DNA of 64,000 nt, taken from assembly GCF_030651185.1 (NCBI RefSeq), contig NZ_JAUSCJ010000029.1:62001-126000 (forward strand). The letters run 5' to 3'. This document shows positions 3,374 to 29,047 of the stretch, piece after piece (within the stretch, counting starts at the first letter, position 1; each line of letters opens with the position of its first letter). This stretch comes from Phenylobacterium sp. (GTDB lineage: Bacteria; Pseudomonadota; Alphaproteobacteria; Caulobacterales; Caulobacteraceae). The position numbers and the translations under genes were made by a program. The notes under the pieces are model-generated. The model did not search any database. It saw nothing but the letters and a program-made list of their open reading frames with translations, and had not been told where the DNA came from.

Positions 3374-4258
3374 ATGGCCAAGCCGACTTTCGAGACGCTC
3401 GCCTACGAGGTTGAGGACGGGATCGCGACGATCACGCTGAACCGGCCCGACAAGCTGAACGCCTTCAACACCCAGATGATGAAGGACATGATCGCCGCCT
3501 TCGACGTCACCGACGCCGATGACGCGGTCAAGGTGGTGATCGTCACCGGGGCTGGGCGCGGCTTCTGCGCCGGGGCCGATCTGTCGGGCGGCGCCCAGAC
3601 CTTCGACTACGACGCGCGCGGCGGCGAGGACAAGGCCGCCCGCACCCGCGAGGGGGTGCAGCGCGACGGCGGCGGCCTGCTGACCCTGCGCATCTATGAG
3701 AGCCTCAAGCCGGTGATCGCCGCCGTGAACGGCCCGGCGGTCGGGGTCGGTGTCACCATGCAGCTGCCCATGGATATCCGCCTGGCCTCGACGGAGGCGC
3801 GGTTCGGCCTGGTCTTCGCCCGGCGCGGCCTCAATCCCGAGGCGGCCTCGTCCTGGTTCCTGCCCAAGGTGGTGGGGGTCCAGACGGCGCTGGAGTGGTG
3901 CTATACCGGCCGCATCTTCTCGGCCCAGGAGGCGTTGGACAAGGGTCTGGTCCGTTCGCTGCACGCGCCGGAAGACCTGCTGCCGGCGGCTCGAGCGCTC
4001 GCCCGCGAGATCGCCGACAATACCGCGCCGGTCTCCATCGCCATCACCCGCCAGCTGTTGTGGCGCATGGCCGGCGCCAACCACCCCATGGAGGCCCACC
4101 GCGCCGACAGCCGGGGCATCCAGACCCGCGGCGCCATGGCCGACGCCCGCGAAGGCGTCATGTCGTTCCTGGAGAAGCGCCCGCCGGTCTTCACCGACAA
4201 GGTTTCCAGCGATGTGCCGGACATCTGGGAGACCTGGAGCGCCCCCACGTTCAAGTGA
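3374..4258 (+). CDS. Enoyl-CoA hydratase/isomerase (crotonase family)
   Basis: 294 residues of crotonase fold, a cytoplasmic enzyme likely to hydrate or isomerise enoyl-CoA. The N-terminal I-T-L-N-R-P-D-K-L-N-A-F block, the oxyanion-hole segment G-x-G-R-G-F-C-A-G-A-D-L (about residues 58-69) and the second oxyanion segment A-V-N-G-P-A-V-G-V-G are clear. A glutamate in the N-P-E-A-A-S-S-W segment sits where many hydratases carry a catalytic acid. The frame is open upstream to 3314, but the ATG at 3374 has GGAGGAAG immediately before it and begins the family alignment. It is divergent from the acyl-CoA synthetase, suggesting co-regulated acyl-CoA catabolism. Hydratase versus isomerase or dehydratase cannot be decided. 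Confidence 0.85.
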   Translation: MAKPTFETLAYEVEDGIATITLNRPDKLNAFNTQMMKDMIAAFDVTDADDAVKVVIVTGAGRGFCAGADLSGGAQTFDYDARGGEDKAARTREGVQRDGGGLLTLRIYESLKPVIAAVNGPAVGVGVTMQLPMDIRLASTEARFGLVFARRGLNPEAASSWFLPKVVGVQTALEWCYTGRIFSAQEALDKGLVRSLHAPEDLLPAARALAREIADNTAPVSIAITRQLLWRMAGANHPMEAHRADSRGIQTRGAMADAREGVMSFLEKRPPVFTDKVSSDVPDIWETWSAPTFK

Positions 4259-4303
4259 GGTGAAAACGTCCGGTTAAGGCGGCTATGGTGTGATCAGCCC
4301 GTC

Positions 4304-5515
4304 ATGAATACTGCCGCGACGCCCAACGAACCCGGACAGCCCATCGCCTTCCGGGCGCGCGCGGCCTTGCTCAAGCGCATGGCCGATGTCGTCTGCCTGC
4401 CGTCATCGCGGGTGAACGCCTTCGAACGCTCGATGACCGCCGACCTGCTGGTGGACATGCTGCGCGAGGCCGAGCCGGAGGACCGCCTGAAGGTGGCCCG
4501 CCGGCTGGCCAACCTCTCGGAGATCCCCGCCAGCCTGGTGCGCCTGTTGCTGCGCGATCATGTCGAGATCGCCGAGGCCTTGCTGACCAACTGCGCGTCG
4601 CTGACGGACTCCGACCTGCTGGACTGCGCCCGTTCGGCGGGCCTGGAGCATCGCCGCCTGATCGCCATGCGGCGGGGGGTCAGCGAAGTGGTTTGCGAGG
4701 TGCTGATCGAGTTCGGCGAGGCGCTGGTCATCGAATGCCTGCTGAAGAACGACCTGGCCAAGCTCTCCAACCCCTGTGTCGAGGCCATTGTCGCCTCCAC
4801 CCGTGGGGACGCGCGCACCGCGCCGACCCTGCTGCGCCGACCGGAACTGCGGCCGGCTCACGCCTTTGTGCTGTTCTGGTGGGCCGATGCCGAGGCCAGG
4901 CGCACCATCCTCCAGCGGTTCGCCGTCTCCCGCGAAGTGCTGCAGGACGCAACCGGCGATATCTTTCCCATGGCGGCGGCCGAGAACTGGCAGGACCCGC
5001 TCGCGCGGAAGGCGCTGCAATTCATCGAACGCCGCCAGCGCAACCGGGCCGCGATCGACAAGTCACCTTTCGACAGTCTCGAGGCGGCCGTTGCTGCAGC
5101 GCAAAGTGGGCTGACCCGCGAAACGGCGGAGGAAATCTCCTACCTCTCGGGCCTGAAGCCGATGACCGGCGCGAAGATCTTCACCGATCCCGGGGGCGAG
5201 CCTTTGGCGATCCTGTGCAAGGCCACGGGGCTGCCAAAGCTGGCGGTTCGGGCTCTGTGGCGGGGCTTGCGGCGACCTGAAACAGAGGCGGATGGAAGCC
5301 TGAATCCGAACCTCGAACGGGTGCTCACCACCTATGACATGATCGCGGTCGATCGCGCGCAAACCGTTCTACGCTACTGGAACTGGTCATTGTCGTCGGC
5401 GCTAACGCCTGCGTTGTTGAAGGCCATTCGCGATGGCGATGAAGACGGCGTCGATGAATACTCTGTGCCGCAGCGCGCAGCCATGTTGGCGCTGTCTAAG
5501 GAATTCGGCCGTTAG
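4304..5515 (+). CDS. DUF2336 domain protein (paralogue 1)
   Basis: A 403-residue soluble protein, mostly alpha-helical, with the DUF2336 signature in its first half: an acidic L-L-x-D-M-L-R-E-A-E-P-E-D-R segment, L-S-E-I-P-A-S-L-V-R-x-L-L-R-D-H, then L-L-x-x-C-A-S-L-T-D-S-D-L-L and a following H-R-R-L-I-A-M-R-R-G-V-S-E element. These recur in HEAT-like helical pairs. No signal peptide, membrane segment or catalytic motif is visible. It begins 45 bp after the hydratase gene on the same strand but is probably transcribed separately. A second DUF2336 protein lies at 17883-18980. Such genes are common and multi-copy in Caulobacterales; function is unknown, perhaps a scaffold. Confidence 0.75.
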   Translation: MNTAATPNEPGQPIAFRARAALLKRMADVVCLPSSRVNAFERSMTADLLVDMLREAEPEDRLKVARRLANLSEIPASLVRLLLRDHVEIAEALLTNCASLTDSDLLDCARSAGLEHRRLIAMRRGVSEVVCEVLIEFGEALVIECLLKNDLAKLSNPCVEAIVASTRGDARTAPTLLRRPELRPAHAFVLFWWADAEARRTILQRFAVSREVLQDATGDIFPMAAAENWQDPLARKALQFIERRQRNRAAIDKSPFDSLEAAVAAAQSGLTRETAEEISYLSGLKPMTGAKIFTDPGGEPLAILCKATGLPKLAVRALWRGLRRPETEADGSLNPNLERVLTTYDMIAVDRAQTVLRYWNWSLSSALTPALLKAIRDGDEDGVDEYSVPQRAAMLALSKEFGR

Positions 5516-5704
5516 GCTCGACGCGAGCAAAAGCCTCCTTTGAAGTTGCCGCGACGTGCTGCTGATCATCGCTCGCTTGCCGGACTGTCGTGATCCAGAC
5601 TATCGCGTTCTCGCTACTGCGGTGCGGCGCCACCATTGGGCGAAATTCGTCTATTCGTCTTTGCGCCGAACGCGTTCGGTCAAGATGATGCGGCTTTGCG
5701 CCAC

Positions 5705-21248: not shown

Positions 21249-22256
21249 CTACTTCGCGGCCAAGGATACGAACTGCAGGGTGTAGGCCTTCTTGTAGTCC
21301 AGGGTCTTGGGATAGACGCCCTGTTCCGAGGCGATCTTGAAGAACTCGGCCCAACGGGCGTCGCTCATCGTGCCGATGCCGGCGGTCTTGGCCTCGCCGC
21401 CGTCGACGATGCCGTAGGATCTCATCTTCTCGCGGGCCTGGTCGAGGACGTCCTGCGACATCTCCGGATTGTCCTTGCGGATCAGGGCGTCGGCGGGCTT
21501 GGGGTCGCCGTAGAGATAGTCGTGCCAGCCCTTGGCCGAGGCCTCCACAAAGCTCTTCACCGCCGCCGGGTTCTCATCGATCAGGCTTTGGGGGACCATG
21601 ATCATGGTGGCGTAGGAGGGATAGCCGTTGTCGGCCAGCAGGAAGACCTTGGGCTTCAGCTTGGCTTCCTTTTCCAGGGTGTAGGGCTCGCTGGTGACAT
21701 AGCCCTGTTGGGCGACGCGCTTGTCGGCCAGGAACGGCGCGGAGTTGAAGGTGTACTTGCGGATCTGGTCGTCGCTGAACCCATACTTTGACTTCAGCCA
21801 CACCCAGAAGGCGGTGACCGAGGCGTCCGACAGCAGGATCGGGTGGCCCCTCAGGTCGCTGATGCTCTCGATGCCCTGGTCGGGGTGGGCGATCAGCACC
21901 TGCGGGTCCTTCTGCATCATGGCGGCGACCGCCTTCACCGGCACGCCCTCCTGGGCCATGTTGAGCGCGATGAAGCTGTTGGAGCCCATGCCGGCCTGGA
22001 CCGCGCCCGAGGCCAGCAGTTGCGGCACGTTCACGCCGGGACCGCCCTGGACGATCCGCACGTCCAGGCCACGCTTGGCGTACTCGCCGTTGGCCACGGC
22101 TTCATAGAAGCCGCCATGCTCGGCCTGGGCGCGCCAGTCGGTGGCGAACTTGATGACCGTGGGCGCGCCGGCCGCGGGCTCGGCCTTCCTGGCCGGCGAG
22201 CAGGCGACGGCGAGAACCGCCAGGGCGGCGAGCGCGAGGGTGCGAAGGGCGTGCAT
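21249..22256 (-). CDS. ABC transporter substrate-binding lipoprotein (NMT1/ThiY-like)
   Basis: 335 residues. A lipoprotein signal peptide ends in a L-A-V-A-C lipobox with Cys19 as the lipidated residue, so the protein should be inner-membrane anchored in the periplasm. The mature part begins I-K-F-A-T-D-W-x-x-x-x-E-H-G-G-F-Y-E-A, like the NMT1/THI5 proteins (ThiY: D-W-x-P-x-x-x-H-x-G-F-Y), followed by G-G-P-G-V-N-V-P-Q-L-L-A-S-G-A-V-Q-A-G. A pyrimidine thiamine precursor is therefore a possible ligand, but sulfonates or riboflavin-like compounds are also seen in this fold. No TPP riboswitch was found in the ~95 bp upstream. First gene of the operon. Confidence 0.8.
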   Translation of the reverse strand: MHALRTLALAALAVLAVACSPARKAEPAAGAPTVIKFATDWRAQAEHGGFYEAVANGEYAKRGLDVRIVQGGPGVNVPQLLASGAVQAGMGSNSFIALNMAQEGVPVKAVAAMMQKDPQVLIAHPDQGIESISDLRGHPILLSDASVTAFWVWLKSKYGFSDDQIRKYTFNSAPFLADKRVAQQGYVTSEPYTLEKEAKLKPKVFLLADNGYPSYATMIMVPQSLIDENPAAVKSFVEASAKGWHDYLYGDPKPADALIRKDNPEMSQDVLDQAREKMRSYGIVDGGEAKTAGIGTMSDARWAEFFKIASEQGVYPKTLDYKKAYTLQFVSLAAK

Positions 22257-22409: not shown

Positions 22410-24476
<2,067 letters not shown>

Positions 24477-24584
24477 CGAGGGTCCTTACGAAGCCGCGCG
24501 ATGATGCCCTAGTCGAATGGCGAAATACTTAAGCTGTGCCAAGTCGGGACAGAATGCCGCACCAAATTGGGTAGCGCCATAGCA

Positions 24585-24839
24585 AGAGGGCGGCGCGGCG
24601 GTTTCCCGCTGCGTCGCCCTCTCATCCAGATCCGTTGGGGGATCTGTGCCCAAAGGTCGGCTTGCGACTTCGAACGCGGGGTTACCCGCAGGTTTCCGTC
24701 GCCGACCGGTGTCCCGCGGAGATGAAGGTCCCGGCTTGCGCCGCTTCCAGTCCTCCGAGAACCTCCTGCTCGCTTCGCCGAACCCGTTCCCGTGTCCGTC
24801 AGCGCCGCAGTCCCTCTCGACCCCTTGACCTTCCCTCCG
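24585..24839. ncRNA. Candidate structured RNA, strand undecided
   Basis: Four sets of complementary segments occupy 255 bp. (1) AGAGGGCG 24585-24592 with CGCCCTCT 24615-24622. (2) CAGATCC 24627-24633 with GGATCTG 24640-24646. (3) GGTCGGC 24655-24661 with GCCGACC 24701-24707, enclosing GAC/GTC and a GCGGG-GTTA-CCCGC hairpin (24676-24689). (4) a 12-bp helix interrupted by a small internal loop: CGGAG-AT-GAAGGTC 24717-24730 with GACCTTC-C-CTCCG 24827-24839. No convincing T-tract terminator lies on either side. It matches none of tmRNA, RNase P RNA, SRP RNA or a known riboswitch as I remember them. The minus strand would place element 1 as the 3' hairpin. Confidence 0.4.
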
Positions 24840-24908
24840 AACCCTCTATGAAGCAAGCGCCGCGACTCGTCCCGATGTGGGCGGAGCGCTCGATCTCCGG
24901 GTATATCC

Positions 24909-24970
24909 TGTGGATGGGTTGTGGATTTCGCGGCGTTTCCCCTAAGAATCAGCGTGCAGACTTATCCACA
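24909..24970. promoter_or_regulatory. Cluster of DnaA-box-like sites with GANTC sites
   Basis: TTATCCACA at 24962-24970 is a perfect DnaA box; TGTGGATGG (24909-24917) and TGTGGATTT (24920-24928) match the reverse consensus TGTGGATAA at seven of nine positions. GAATC (CcrM) sites lie between and beside them. It could be a DnaA-regulated promoter. No hemE, parAB, dnaA or CtrA full boxes are nearby, so an origin is not supported. Confidence 0.45.
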
Positions 24971-24999: not shown

Positions 25000-26811
25000 C
25001 TAGAGGCCGGTTTCCAGCGCCTCGCGCATCTCTTCCAGCTTCATCCAGTCCTCCTCGGCCTTAACAAGCTCGGCCTGGGCGTGCGCATGGGACTTGGTCA
25101 GCTTGTCGAAGCCTGCGGGATCGCGGGTGTAGAGCGCCGGATCGGCCATGTCGGCCTCAAGCTTGGCGATCTTGGCCGGCAGACTGAGCATCAGGCCCTC
25201 GGCCTCCTTCAGCCGGTGCTGATCCTTGAAGGAGAGCTTCGTCTTCTTCGACTCGGGCGCTTGCGGCGCGGCCTTGGCCGCCACCTTTGGCGCAGGCGGC
25301 GTTGAGGCGGGTGCGGAGATCGCACCGAAATAGCCGGGGTTCTGGCGCAGGAAGTCCTGCCAACCGCCGGGCGTCTCCACTACGTCGCCGCGGCCGTTCA
25401 GGGCGATGGTCGAGGTGGCCAACCGGTCGATGAAGTCACGGTCGTGGCTCACCAGGATCAGGGTTCCCTCGAAGTCGGCCAGCAGGTCCTCGAGCAGGTC
25501 GAGGGTATCCATGTCCAGGTCGTTGGTGGGTTCGTCGAGGATCAGCAGGTTGGCCGGGGTGGCGAGCGCGCGGGCCAGCAGCAGGCGGTTGCGCTCGCCG
25601 CCGGACAGGCTGCGCACCGGCTGGCGGATCTGGGCGTCGGTGAACAGGAAGTCCTTGGCGTAGGCGTTCACGTGTTTGGGCAGGCCGCGCACCATCACCT
25701 GGTCGCCGCCGAGCGGGGTCAGCACATCGCGCAGCATCATGTCGGGCTTCAGGTCGGCCCGGGCCTGGTCGATATAGGCGATCTCCAGGTTGGCCCCCAG
25801 CTTCACCGAGCCCTCGTCCGGCGCGATCTGCCCCAGCAGCATCTTGACCAGGGTGGTCTTGCCCGCACCGTTGGGACCGACGATGGCCACGCGGTCGCCG
25901 CGCAGGATGCGGGTGGAAAAGCTCTTCAGCAGGGTGCGCTCGCCGAAGCCCTTGGCGATGCCCTTGGCCTCGATCACCCGCTGGCCGGACAGGCCCGAGG
26001 ACGCGATGCCCATGTTCATGTCGCCGCGCACCTCGCGCAGCCGTTCGACCTTCACCTGGCGCAGGTCCATCAGGGCGCGCCGACGCCCTTCGTTGCGGGC
26101 CCGGCGGCCGGTGACCCCGCGCTGCAGCCAGTGCTCTTCCTGCTCCAGCTTCTTGTCGATCTTCCGGCCTTCCTCGGCCTCGGCGGCCAGGACCTGCTCG
26201 ACCCAAGCGTCAAAGGCGGCGAACCCCTTGTCCAGGCGGCGCACCTTGCGGTGCTCCAGCCAGAAGCTGCGCTGGGTGGTGCGCTCCAAGAAAGCGCGGT
26301 CGTGGCTGACGATGACCATGGCGGCGCGGCTGGAGGCAAGCTCGGCCTCCAGGCTCTCAATGGCCAGGATGTCCAGGTGGTTGGTGGGCTCGTCCAGCAG
26401 CAGCAGGTCCGGGTCCTCGGCGAAGGCGCGGGCCAGGGCGACGCGGCGGATCTCGCCGCCGGACAGGCCCGCGGTCGACTTCTCCGGATCGATGCCGAAG
26501 ATGTCCAAGGCCGCCTGGGCCTGGTACTCGGCCGCGCCGCCGGCGATGCAATGGTCCAGCAGGGTGGCGCCGACGATCTCCGGCTCCTGCGGAACATAGG
26601 CGATACGGGTGGCGGGCTGCACGGCGCGCTCGCCGTCGTCGGGCTGGATCTGCCCGGCCAGCATCTTGAGCAAGGTGGTCTTGCCCGCCCCGTTGCGTCC
26701 CACCAGGCAGGCGCGCGACCGCGGCTCCACCGCCAGGTTGACCCCGTCGAACAGCATTTTCGGTCCGTCGGCGAGACGAACATTCTTCAAGGCGAGGATG
26801 GGTGGCTTCAT
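25000..26811 (-). CDS. uup: ABC-F ATPase, Uup-like
   Basis: 603 residues with two ABC domains and no membrane segments, the ABC-F arrangement of ribosome-associated ATPases. Walker A copies are G-R-N-G-A-G-K-T (about 38-45) and G-P-N-G-A-G-K-T (about 315-322), signatures L-S-G-G-E appear in both halves, and Walker B reads L-L-L-L-D-E-P-T-N-H-L-D and L-I-L-D-E-P-T-N-D-L-D. After a proline/alanine linker, the C-terminal 90 residues form the charged coiled-coil that marks Uup rather than EttA. Uup proteins act on stalled or misfolded ribosome complexes and affect transposon excision. The ATG at 26811 (M-K-P-P-I-L-A-L) starts the alignment; the longer frame upstream is not conserved-looking. Confidence 0.85.
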   Translation of the reverse strand: MKPPILALKNVRLADGPKMLFDGVNLAVEPRSRACLVGRNGAGKTTLLKMLAGQIQPDDGERAVQPATRIAYVPQEPEIVGATLLDHCIAGGAAEYQAQAALDIFGIDPEKSTAGLSGGEIRRVALARAFAEDPDLLLLDEPTNHLDILAIESLEAELASSRAAMVIVSHDRAFLERTTQRSFWLEHRKVRRLDKGFAAFDAWVEQVLAAEAEEGRKIDKKLEQEEHWLQRGVTGRRARNEGRRRALMDLRQVKVERLREVRGDMNMGIASSGLSGQRVIEAKGIAKGFGERTLLKSFSTRILRGDRVAIVGPNGAGKTTLVKMLLGQIAPDEGSVKLGANLEIAYIDQARADLKPDMMLRDVLTPLGGDQVMVRGLPKHVNAYAKDFLFTDAQIRQPVRSLSGGERNRLLLARALATPANLLILDEPTNDLDMDTLDLLEDLLADFEGTLILVSHDRDFIDRLATSTIALNGRGDVVETPGGWQDFLRQNPGYFGAISAPASTPPAPKVAAKAAPQAPESKKTKLSFKDQHRLKEAEGLMLSLPAKIAKLEADMADPALYTRDPAGFDKLTKSHAHAQAELVKAEEDWMKLEEMREALETGL

Positions 26812-26851
26812 GCGGCGTCCGACATAGCGACGCGCAGGCGGGAAGCAAGCT

Positions 26852-29047
26852 CTAGAACGGAATCTCCTCGACCGACGGCTGGATCGGCGGCGGCGCCGGC
26901 TGAACCGGCTCCGGCGGGATCGCGGCCTCGGCGTCGCGGGCGGCGGCGGAAAACTCGTCGGCCAGGCCCTCATAGAACTCGTTGCGCGGATCGGCCTCCA
27001 GCTCGGGCTCCGGATCGGGCAGCAGCCAGTCGAAGTCGCGGATCGGCAGCTTCTCGTGCGCCACCACCATGAACTGCCGCCAGATGGCCGCCGACATGAC
27101 GCCGCCGGTGATGCGGTTCATCGGCTTGTCGTCGTCGTTGCCGACCCAGATGCCCGCCACATAGTCGGGTGTGAAGCCCACGAACCAGGCGTCACGCCAG
27201 TTCTGGCTGGTGCCGGTCTTGCCCGCGGCGGGACGGCCGAAGTTGGCTCGGGCGCCGGTGCCGCCGCTGATCACCTTCTTCATCATCTTCACCATCATGC
27301 TGGCGCGGGCGATGTCGTAGGCGGGCACGGGTGAAGAGGTCTGGTGCAGGAACACCGGCTGGCCGCTGATCGTCTTGATCTCGTCGACCATGTACGGCGT
27401 GATCCGGTTGCCGCCGGTCTGGAAGACCTGGAAGCCGGAGACCATCTCGATCAGCGGCACCTCGTACGAGCCGAGCGCCACCGAAAGATTGGGGCTGGGC
27501 GGAATGGTGGTGATGCCGAAGCGCCGGGTCAGTTCGCTGATCGCCGGACCGCCGACCTCCTGGGCGAGCTTCACCGCCACGGTGTTGATGGACTGGGCCA
27601 GGGCGTTTTCCACCGTCACCGCGCCGCGATAGCCGCCGCCGTAGTTCTCGGGTTTCCAGTCGCCGAACTTCACCGGGCCGTCGATGCGCACATCAGTGGG
27701 CATGACCCCCTTCTCCAGGGCGGCGGCATAGACGAAGGGCTTGAAGGAGGAGCCGGGCTGCCGTCTGGCCTGGACCGCGCGATTGAAGACGCTGGCGTTG
27801 TAGTCGAGACCGCCCACCATGGTGCGGATCGCGCCCTCGGCGGAGATGGCCACCATGCTGGCCTGGGAGGCGCCGGCCGCCTTGCCCTCGGCGGCGATCA
27901 CCTGGCGCAGGATGCCCGCGCCGGTGGCCTGCAGCTTGGGATCGATGGTCAGCCGGACCATCAGGTCGGGCGAGTTGGGACCGACGAGCTTCAGCACCTC
28001 GTTGGTGGCGTAGTCCAGGGCGTAGCCCATGTCCCCGTCATTGGCCAAGGCGCTGGGGCTGATCAGCGGCGGCCGGGCCGCGGCGGTGGCGGCGGCGTCG
28101 GCGGTGATCCAGCCCTCGCCCTGCATCCGCTCCAGCACCAGGCGCTGGCGCTCCAGGGCGCCGGCCATGTTGCGGTTCAGCGCCATGCGCGAGGGCGCCT
28201 TGGGCAGGCTGGCCAGCAGGGCGGCTTCCGACAGGGTCAGCTGGCTGGCGGGTTTGCCGAAATAGGTGCGGCTTGCGCCGTCGATGCCGAAGGTATTGGC
28301 TCCGAAATAGATGCGGTTGAGGTAGAGCTCGAGGACTTCGTCCTTGCTCAGCATCTTCTCCAGGCGCTGGGCCATGACGGCCTCCTGGATCTTCCGCGTC
28401 ATGGTCTGGTCGGGCGTCAGGAACAGGCCCTTGGCCAACTGCTGCGACAGGGTCGAGCCGCCCTCAACCACCTTGCCGGCGGCATAGTTGGCCCGCGCGG
28501 CGCGCAGGATGGCCCAGGGGTCGACCGCGCCGTGCTGATAGAATCGCCGGTCCTCGGCGGCCAGGAAGGCGCGCGGCACATAGTCAGGGAGCTGGGTGAG
28601 GGTGACGCGATCGCCGTACTTCGGCCCGCGCGACGCGATCAGCACGCCGGTCTTGTCGAAGAACTTGATGGCTGGCGCCCGGTTGATCGCATAGAGCGCC
28701 TCGCGCTCCGGCAGGGCCGGGATATCCTTCAGATAAACCTGCTGGATATAGACCGCGCCGCCCAGGATCAGCAGGGCCGTCACCGCCGCCATCACCACCA
28801 GGGTGGTCCACAGCCACTTCAGGTTCTTGGGCTTTCGCGGTCCGCCACCGCCCGATCCGCCGCCGCCGGTCCTGGTCTTCGCGGGCTTCTCGGTCTTCAG
28901 CTTGGCCTTTTTCGGCTTGGGCAGATCGGCCCGGAAGTGTTCGTCGGGCGCCGCGTCAGGCTCGGGCGCGCGCGCCGGCGCCCCGGGCGCCTGGGGGCTC
29001 GGCTTGGAGTCCGGGAACTTGTAGGGGTCGAGATTCCAGTCGGGCAC
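26852..29047 (-). CDS. Class A penicillin-binding protein (PBP1A type)
   Basis: 731 residues, bifunctional peptidoglycan synthase. A cytoplasmic Pro/Lys/Gly-rich tail (1-75) precedes one membrane anchor (about 77-100). The GT51 glycosyltransferase domain has E-D-R-R-F-Y-x-H-G and G-G-S-T-L-S-Q-Q-L-A-K; the transpeptidase domain has the S-S-F-K serine/lysine motif (G-S-S-F-K-P-F), S-I-N and K-T-G-T. All catalytic motifs are intact. The start is GTG at 29047 with no clear SD. It is divergent from the YcgN gene with only 55 bp between starts. Which Caulobacter class A PBP (PbpX/Y/Z, PbpC, Pbp1A) it matches cannot be told. Confidence 0.92.
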   Translation of the reverse strand: MPDWNLDPYKFPDSKPSPQAPGAPARAPEPDAAPDEHFRADLPKPKKAKLKTEKPAKTRTGGGGSGGGGPRKPKNLKWLWTTLVVMAAVTALLILGGAVYIQQVYLKDIPALPEREALYAINRAPAIKFFDKTGVLIASRGPKYGDRVTLTQLPDYVPRAFLAAEDRRFYQHGAVDPWAILRAARANYAAGKVVEGGSTLSQQLAKGLFLTPDQTMTRKIQEAVMAQRLEKMLSKDEVLELYLNRIYFGANTFGIDGASRTYFGKPASQLTLSEAALLASLPKAPSRMALNRNMAGALERQRLVLERMQGEGWITADAAATAAARPPLISPSALANDGDMGYALDYATNEVLKLVGPNSPDLMVRLTIDPKLQATGAGILRQVIAAEGKAAGASQASMVAISAEGAIRTMVGGLDYNASVFNRAVQARRQPGSSFKPFVYAAALEKGVMPTDVRIDGPVKFGDWKPENYGGGYRGAVTVENALAQSINTVAVKLAQEVGGPAISELTRRFGITTIPPSPNLSVALGSYEVPLIEMVSGFQVFQTGGNRITPYMVDEIKTISGQPVFLHQTSSPVPAYDIARASMMVKMMKKVISGGTGARANFGRPAAGKTGTSQNWRDAWFVGFTPDYVAGIWVGNDDDKPMNRITGGVMSAAIWRQFMVVAHEKLPIRDFDWLLPDPEPELEADPRNEFYEGLADEFSAAARDAEAAIPPEPVQPAPPPIQPSVEEIPF

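Follow-up and report, generated by a model that had tools for sequence, protein, structure and literature searches.

A Probable Unclassified Folded RNA in an Intergenic Gap of Phenylobacterium, Conserved in the Genus and in Some Relatives

Does a gap of 523 bp between two bacterial genes hold the gene of a structured RNA and, if so, does that RNA lead the gene behind it or act on its own? The question was raised by a stretch of 64,000 nt from Phenylobacterium sp. (NZ_JAUSCJ010000029.1, positions 62,001-126,000; assembly GCF_030651185.1), referred to here as the window. In it, the gap runs from the start of a kinase gene (24476) to the stop of uup (25000). An initial annotation had proposed for positions 24585-24839 a strongly folding, possibly new RNA, either a small RNA or the leader of the kinase gene. 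Caulobacter and related bacteria serve as references in the study of cell-cycle control, and to our knowledge few noncoding RNAs have been characterized in the Caulobacter cell-cycle circuit. The comparisons below indicate that the gap probably holds a previously unclassified folded RNA of approximately 250 nt, conserved in Phenylobacterium and some relatives. The neighboring genes are as follows.

21249..22256, minus strand: NMT1-type ABC substrate-binding protein (Pfam NMT1 and synteny); 48 of 59 locus-A copies have a relative of this gene downstream
22410..24476, minus strand: MASE1 hybrid histidine kinase (Pfam MASE1, HisKA, HATPase_c, and Response_reg); first gene downstream of the RNA here
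25000..26973, minus strand: uup/ABC-F ATPase (Pfam ABC_tran and ABC_tran_CTD, and synteny); upstream neighbor of the RNA at locus A

Materials and Methods

Copies of the RNA were drawn from 110 distinct pattern matches, of which 17 failed the profile score; removal of near-duplicates reduced the remaining 93 to 91. L129, L052, and a shifted duplicate in L060 were removed by hand, leaving 88 copies, and exclusion of L072, in which the cutting motif was missing, left 87 cores. Alignment A1 comprises 60 of these 87 cores, hand-picked to thin close relatives, and alignment A3 comprises 42 of 50 loci, kept at fewer than 400 columns. Model R1 has 247 positions; R2 is a later covariance model. When rescored with R2, L072 proved to be a full copy and L052 a partial one (29.2 bits, 109 bases). 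L129:673-742, on a contig labeled Pyxidicoccus fallax (a myxobacterium), gave a partial R2 match (43.5 bits, 70 bases) that may reflect chance, transfer, or contamination.

The structure adopted was obtained from averaged single-sequence pair probabilities. Covariation was compared with shuffled and with slid alignments; slid controls keep the relatedness of the sequences, whereas shuffles do not. Genomic loci were split by clustering the flanking reading frames, which placed 56 of 88 copies at locus A and 29 at locus B, with 3 unassigned. A later flank search used 59 locus-A copies (the 3 unassigned copies counted in) and 28 locus-B copies, and some of the stretches searched end at contig ends.

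Results

Fold of the RNA

The strong folding first reported for 24585-24839 was found on both strands: compared with 200 shuffles per strand, the z score was -3.10 on the plus strand (1 of 200 shuffles equally good) and -4.11 on the minus strand (0 of 200). The absence of a known family was likewise confirmed, because Rfam 15 at the gathering score gave no match in the whole window. In a permissive search of the gap (up to E 5), the sole sub-threshold match was sraL (15.6 bits vs. 39 needed). The following elements were defined, all read on the minus strand.

24578..24825: structured RNA core, from P1 to the tail after P7 (248 nt here; model R2, 161.1 bits, E 2.5e-42; alignment A1)
24821-24813 with 24656-24648: P1, the closing helix (alignment A1)
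24819..24821, partner 24648-24650: P1a 5′ arm (96.1% of cells paired; C-G to U-A changes)
24813..24816, partner 24653-24656: P1b 5′ arm (89.1% of cells paired)
24766..24810: P2-P3 arm (P2, 24810-24802 with 24773-24766; apical P3, 24794-24791 with 24786-24783)
24711..24762: P4 arm with an apical GNRA loop (GNRA in 58 of 60 copies)
24658..24708: P5 arm (basal helix with double changes at 10 of 10 pairs; 69.8% of cells paired)
24626..24647: P6 hairpin (93.2% of cells paired)
24584..24623: P7, a long, GC-rich 3′-terminal hairpin with a GNRA loop, followed by UUGCUAU; terminator-like without a U-tract

P1 closes a junction of the P2-P3, P4, and P5 arms, after which P6 and P7 follow. The window copy forms 68 of the 86 consensus pairs, and the length of the RNA varies from approximately 240 to 275 nt across copies. 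The interval proposed at the outset nearly equals this core, with P6 and P7 conserved within it, and the hairpin in a clamp described at 24655-24707 is the conserved P5 arm (24708-24658). The 12-bp helix proposed between 24717-24730 and 24827-24839 fared less well: it exists in this copy, with its inner arm mostly in the conserved P4, but is not itself conserved. Its outer arm lies outside the core, and approximately four of its pairs are left, by eye, in the closest relative (L002).

When copies were folded one by one on the minus strand, many shared this architecture; the deviants among the 16 copies displayed included L008, L047, and L106. By a strict column count of single-sequence folds of 60 copies, P6 formed in 57, P7 in 56, the P4 tip in 53, and P3 and the P5 tip in 37 each. 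P1 formed in 35 of the same copies and P2 in 30, and P1, P2, P6, and P7 formed jointly in 18. Because P1 and P2 form in few single-sequence folds, the closing part of the structure leans on covariation more than on energy. The junction was also lost in single folds of G022, G145, G205, and G225, and RNAalifold on the mixed alignment gave a smaller fold of 33 pairs that lacked P1 to P3.

The P6 loop reads CCCAAC in 51 of 60 copies, and GNRA loops replace it in some (for example, L007, L008, and L012), which suggests that it is probably not an antisense seed. In one Phenylobacterium-type copy (L060:3424-3825), the P7 pattern occurs twice, 59 bases apart, a repetition that would suit a self-contained unit, for example a terminator.

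Distribution among relatives

When the gap was used as a BLASTN query, 32 of 36 congeneric genomes, its own included, gave a match, and there were two marginal matches (E 0.007-0.009) among 24 genomes of the same order. Of 73 Phenylobacterium genomes, 66 contained a strict pattern for the terminal hairpin, which was present in none of 226 genomes from the family's other genera; the reversed control pattern did not occur in the same genomes. A pattern scan of named genomes (at least 80 loci) reached other phyla as well; the scattered matches there were without the second hairpin or failed the profile.

Model searches gave a broader distribution. In a draw of 159 genomes of the family, R1 found full-length copies in all 26 Phenylobacterium genomes, with two full-length copies at E < 1e-20 in 10 of them, and in 5 genomes of a second genus (g32), which is probably Caulobacter. 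In the remaining genera of this draw, matches were weak and mostly short, reaching 36.9 bits at most among the matches listed. The window's own genome has a single copy. Within the second genus, R1 matched 28 of 75 genomes at E ≤ 1e-6, 25 of these over 230 bases or more; R1 did not find the RNA in the other 47, and a laxer R2 search of 19 of these gave no long match. R2 added one genome in each of two further Caulobacteraceae genera (g16, 73.5 bits; g28, 43.8 bits). In a class-wide draw of 289 genomes searched with strict filters at E 1e-7, the own genome was the only one matched among the matches listed, and at least two of the nonmatching genomes belong to the same family. Overall, full-length model matches at E values of approximately 1e-9 to 1e-52 were obtained in dozens of genomes.

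Covariation and strand

Across the aligned copies, a common fold has been kept by compensatory changes. In the set of 60 copies (87 pairs), 78.0% of cells pair (71.6% when shuffled), double changes occur at 56 pairs (44.2 when shuffled, SD 2.2), and the covariation score is 0.220 (0.131 when shuffled, SD 0.004; 0.087 or less when slid). With the second genus added, 81.3% of cells pair (shuffled, 69.1%), double changes occur at 70 pairs (shuffled, 48.1), and the score is 0.329 (shuffled, 0.149; slid, 0.079 or less); structure and alignment derive partly from the same sequences, and alignment A3, being fitted to the model, leans towards it. The early suggestion of a new structured RNA thus gains support from conservation in relatives and from compensatory changes far above shuffled and slid controls.

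GNRA loops, found in 55 of 60 copies at P7, 42 at P3, and, by a looser pattern, 46 at P5, in addition to the 58 at P4, and an excess of G-U over A-C in well-paired columns (201 vs. 99) point to the same strand. The RNA is most likely read from the minus strand. A small protein was dropped as a candidate product because no frame is common to all copies: no frame stays open in over 49 of 87 copies, whichever end is used for counting, and all three classes modulo 3 occur among the lengths. This test is weak, since GC-rich DNA tends to contain open frames and 81 of the 87 copies do contain one.

Genomic loci

Of the 59 locus-A copies, 55 have a co-directional uup upstream. Downstream, within 3 kb, an NMT1-type transporter gene was found in 48 of 59 copies and a MASE1 kinase gene in 14 of 59, and the median first aligned base after P7 was at 69 nt for the transporter and at 73 nt for the kinase. 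In the second genus, the transporter was downstream in 16 of 20 copies (152 nt) and the kinase in 3 of 20 (134 nt); all these distances are rough, because the query frames have extended N-terminal ends. The kinase ATG of the window lies 102 nt past the RNA core. The order uup-RNA-transporter is kept in four genera, and the g16 and g28 copies also lie between uup and a transporter gene. At locus B, rnd is upstream in 25 of 28 copies and ppx converges on the RNA in 21 of 28. In a FastTree phylogeny of the RNAs, 27 of 28 locus-B copies fell in one clade (support 0.90), a grouping that fits an old duplication.

The surroundings of L205 were inspected individually: its kinase gene is at 3527-5614, no uup was found within 3.1 kb upstream, and an M56/BlaR1 peptidase gene lies approximately 1.2 kb upstream in the opposite direction. 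In loci of the second genus, sub-threshold matches to human or plant microRNA families were obtained outside the RNA at L205:5640-5757, L191:3051-3190, and L199:2929-3096; these are probably long inverted repeats.

The main rival explanation is set by this gene order. The RNA could be a cis leader that regulates the NMT1-transporter operon or the MASE1 kinase from the 5′ UTR, as a riboswitch or attenuator; P7 would then be the terminator, and the locus-B copy a displaced or trans-acting derivative. A co-directional gene close behind the RNA, as expected of a leader, is indeed the rule at locus A and recurs in the second genus, and the order kept in four genera speaks for this reading; so do L204, L205, L206, and L207, which have the kinase downstream and no uup found in the stretch searched. 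However, the downstream place at locus A is taken by two unrelated genes, and locus-B copies retain the fold and the upstream boxes described below yet face ppx head-on, whereas a leader would always sit in the 5′ UTR of its target gene. This convergence indicates that the RNA is probably its own gene and not a leader. By eye, no conserved alternative helix was seen to compete with P7. The sole, weak candidate for an antiterminator pairing in A1 (5′ CGAGAGG with 3′ CCUCUUG) has, by eye, a variable base that is not compensated. We consider a leader unlikely, although it deserves to be kept in mind, and the version with the kinase as the led gene, raised in the initial annotation, is weakened by the greater frequency of the transporter downstream and by the meeting with ppx at locus B.

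DnaA-box-like sites and promoter elements

The following elements were identified between the RNA core and uup.

24962..24970, plus strand: perfect DnaA box TTATCCACA (on the RNA strand, TGTGGATAA); position class about -146
24920..24928, minus strand: DnaA-box-like site AAATCCACA, two mismatches; 11 bp from the CCATCCACA site; position class about -90
24909..24917, minus strand: DnaA-box-like site CCATCCACA, two mismatches to TTATCCACA; position class about -79 to -90
24843..24859, minus strand: conserved CGCTTGC...ATA element, possibly a promoter core

The exact TTATCCACA occurs in the 64-kb window at 24962-24970 alone, and window-wide there is no excess of the motif with one mismatch (2 vs. 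2.08 by chance). Upstream of the RNA the motif is enriched. With one mismatch or less, the 220 nt upstream hold 47 sites in 59 locus-A copies (shuffles, 0.95; 43 copies with a site), 36 sites in 28 locus-B copies (shuffles, 0.1; 26 copies), and 30 sites in 20 copies of the second genus (shuffles, 0.35; 18 copies), which is approximately 50-fold to 360-fold above shuffles; by the same measure, none was found inside the RNA bodies. Throughout the upstream sequences, the DnaA-box-like sites lie at near-constant distances: six-letter words placed them, relative to the core, near -146 (reversed), -90, and -79, with approximately 11 bp between the latter two, and some copies are one turn off. At locus B, the -146 site is mostly TGAGGATAA. 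Judged by motif and position, DnaA would bind at these predicted boxes.

Similar sites are described in Caulobacter. Zhou et al. (PMC4287350) give for podJ P2 a DnaA motif CTCCACA at -82 and for mipZ P2 the motifs ATCCACA at -52 and GTCCACA at -83. These share the form of the sites found here, and their distances are comparable only roughly, as they are given there from transcription starts and here from the RNA core.

At -33 from the core, 41 of 59 locus-A copies have GCTTGC, and 12 of 20 second-genus copies have GGTTGC; none of the 28 locus-B copies has the TTGC...ATA form. The start of the RNA would lie approximately 15 nt upstream of the core if a GCTACATA-like site is the -10 element, and inside P1 if TTGC is the -35 element. 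Consensus scans detected no sigma-70 promoter and no U-tract terminator, and P7 was not called. A sigma-54 promoter, with TTGC at -33 as the -12 element, was rejected because the -24 GG is, by eye, unconserved in the second genus. Full CtrA sites were found upstream in 0 of 107 copies over three groups.

The boxes also bear on a second alternative, namely that the locus is a DNA element resembling datA or DARS, which are sites of DnaA titration or reactivation, and that the fold is incidental. The sites are clustered, with one reversed and two direct at a spacing of approximately 11 bp, as such an element might have them, but they lie outside the folded part, and the compensatory changes and GNRA loops in the adjoining 250 bp need a single-stranded product. 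This makes a DNA element very improbable.

Remaining alternatives

A CsrA/RsmA-type sponge related to CsrB and CsrC was suggested by one relative, in which L184:1499-1712 matched CsrC (39.4 bits, E 1.4e-8; gathering score, 61). This was the only family that Rfam searches at gathering and permissive thresholds returned on the RNA itself, and of 24 related loci just this one gave it. A search for CsrA (PF02599) detected the protein in 3 of 14 control genomes but in none of 99 Caulobacteraceae genomes, and GGA was scarcely more frequent than in shuffles (11.4 vs. 10.5 per copy; mostly unpaired GGA, 4.4 vs. 3.9). With CsrA missing and so scant a GGA excess, we excluded the sponge, barring an unrelated GGA-binding protein, and give it a minimal probability. 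Chance folding of GC-rich intergenic DNA, which would fit the ready folding of such sequence and z scores of merely -3 to -4, is refuted by full-length model matches in dozens of genomes and by strong covariation, and has practically no probability left.

Discussion

The reading that we favor, with rather more confidence than doubt, is that the gap would be the gene of an independent minus-strand noncoding RNA, coupled to DnaA and acting by its fold. The RNA would be transcribed from its own promoter, placed just downstream of the DnaA-box-like sites; DnaA would time its synthesis, as at podJ and mipZ of Caulobacter; and the transcript would end at P7. The likely DnaA sites ahead of the RNA are a hint of a link with the cell cycle, and synthesis of the RNA would be coupled to replication or to the cell cycle. 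Constraint is strongest on helices, junctions, and GNRA loops and not on one exposed seed, so that the RNA most likely works through its three-dimensional fold, binding a protein or ribonucleoprotein as a scaffold or sponge, and not mainly as an antisense RNA.

More speculatively, and with real doubt, the RNA may represent a class specific to Caulobacteraceae, switched by DnaA and acting by its fold on a protein of replication or translation. Such a class would give the alphaproteobacterial cell-cycle circuit an RNA arm that is not antisense; it would have been duplicated in Phenylobacterium and might be present unnoticed in C. crescentus under the label of a short noncoding RNA. If so, replication initiation would control an RNA that works through its shape. 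An RNA present in several genera, outside Rfam, and preceded by positioned DnaA-box-like sites makes the proposal directly testable. Our literature search found no paper describing the RNA as a structured family.

Several known RNAs invite comparison. Like 6S RNA (RF00013), the RNA described here appears as an independent structured RNA in the same genomes. It was rejected as a replacement of 6S RNA: 18 of 20 Phenylobacterium genomes gave a 6S match elsewhere, 17 of them above the cut-off, and none was obtained at this locus. CsrB and CsrC (RF00084 clan) are similar in having multiple hairpins and a strong final one, and in the one sub-threshold match in a relative; they differ in that no CsrA was found in the family (0 of 99) and the RNA has no marked GGA excess. 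The large structured bacterial RNAs raiA, OLE, ROOL, and GOLLD are lineage-bound, with an elaborate conserved fold and no known partner. The RNA described here is similarly lineage-bound and elaborately folded, but it has no Rfam match to any of them and has DnaA-box-like sites upstream.

The closest comparisons are with C. crescentus. CcnA, which we take to be CCNA_R0094, differs from the RNA described here in its locus. The likeness lies in its being a noncoding RNA of the CtrA/GcrA cell-cycle circuit (PMC8959179); CCNA_R0094 is given in PMC4287350 as a 182-nt RNA transcribed from within the replication origin. CCNA_R0016 is a weak lead as the orthologue of the G225 copy, on coordinates taken from the papers. 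It is annotated at 844332-844401 on the plus strand (70 nt), with one predicted DnaA site between -100 and +50 (PMC5988900), was 5.0-fold Hfq-enriched (PMC11005374), and co-purified with GsrN (PMC5869019). It resembles the RNA described here in its plus strand, its DnaA site, and a map position near the G225 copy at 804151 (+), and differs in its annotated length (70 nt vs. approximately 260). The motif UCGGGGG, listed for CCNA_R0016 in PMC5869019, is absent from the G225 RNA copy. If the link is true, the RNA has already been seen in C. crescentus and has simply gone unrecognized as a structured family.
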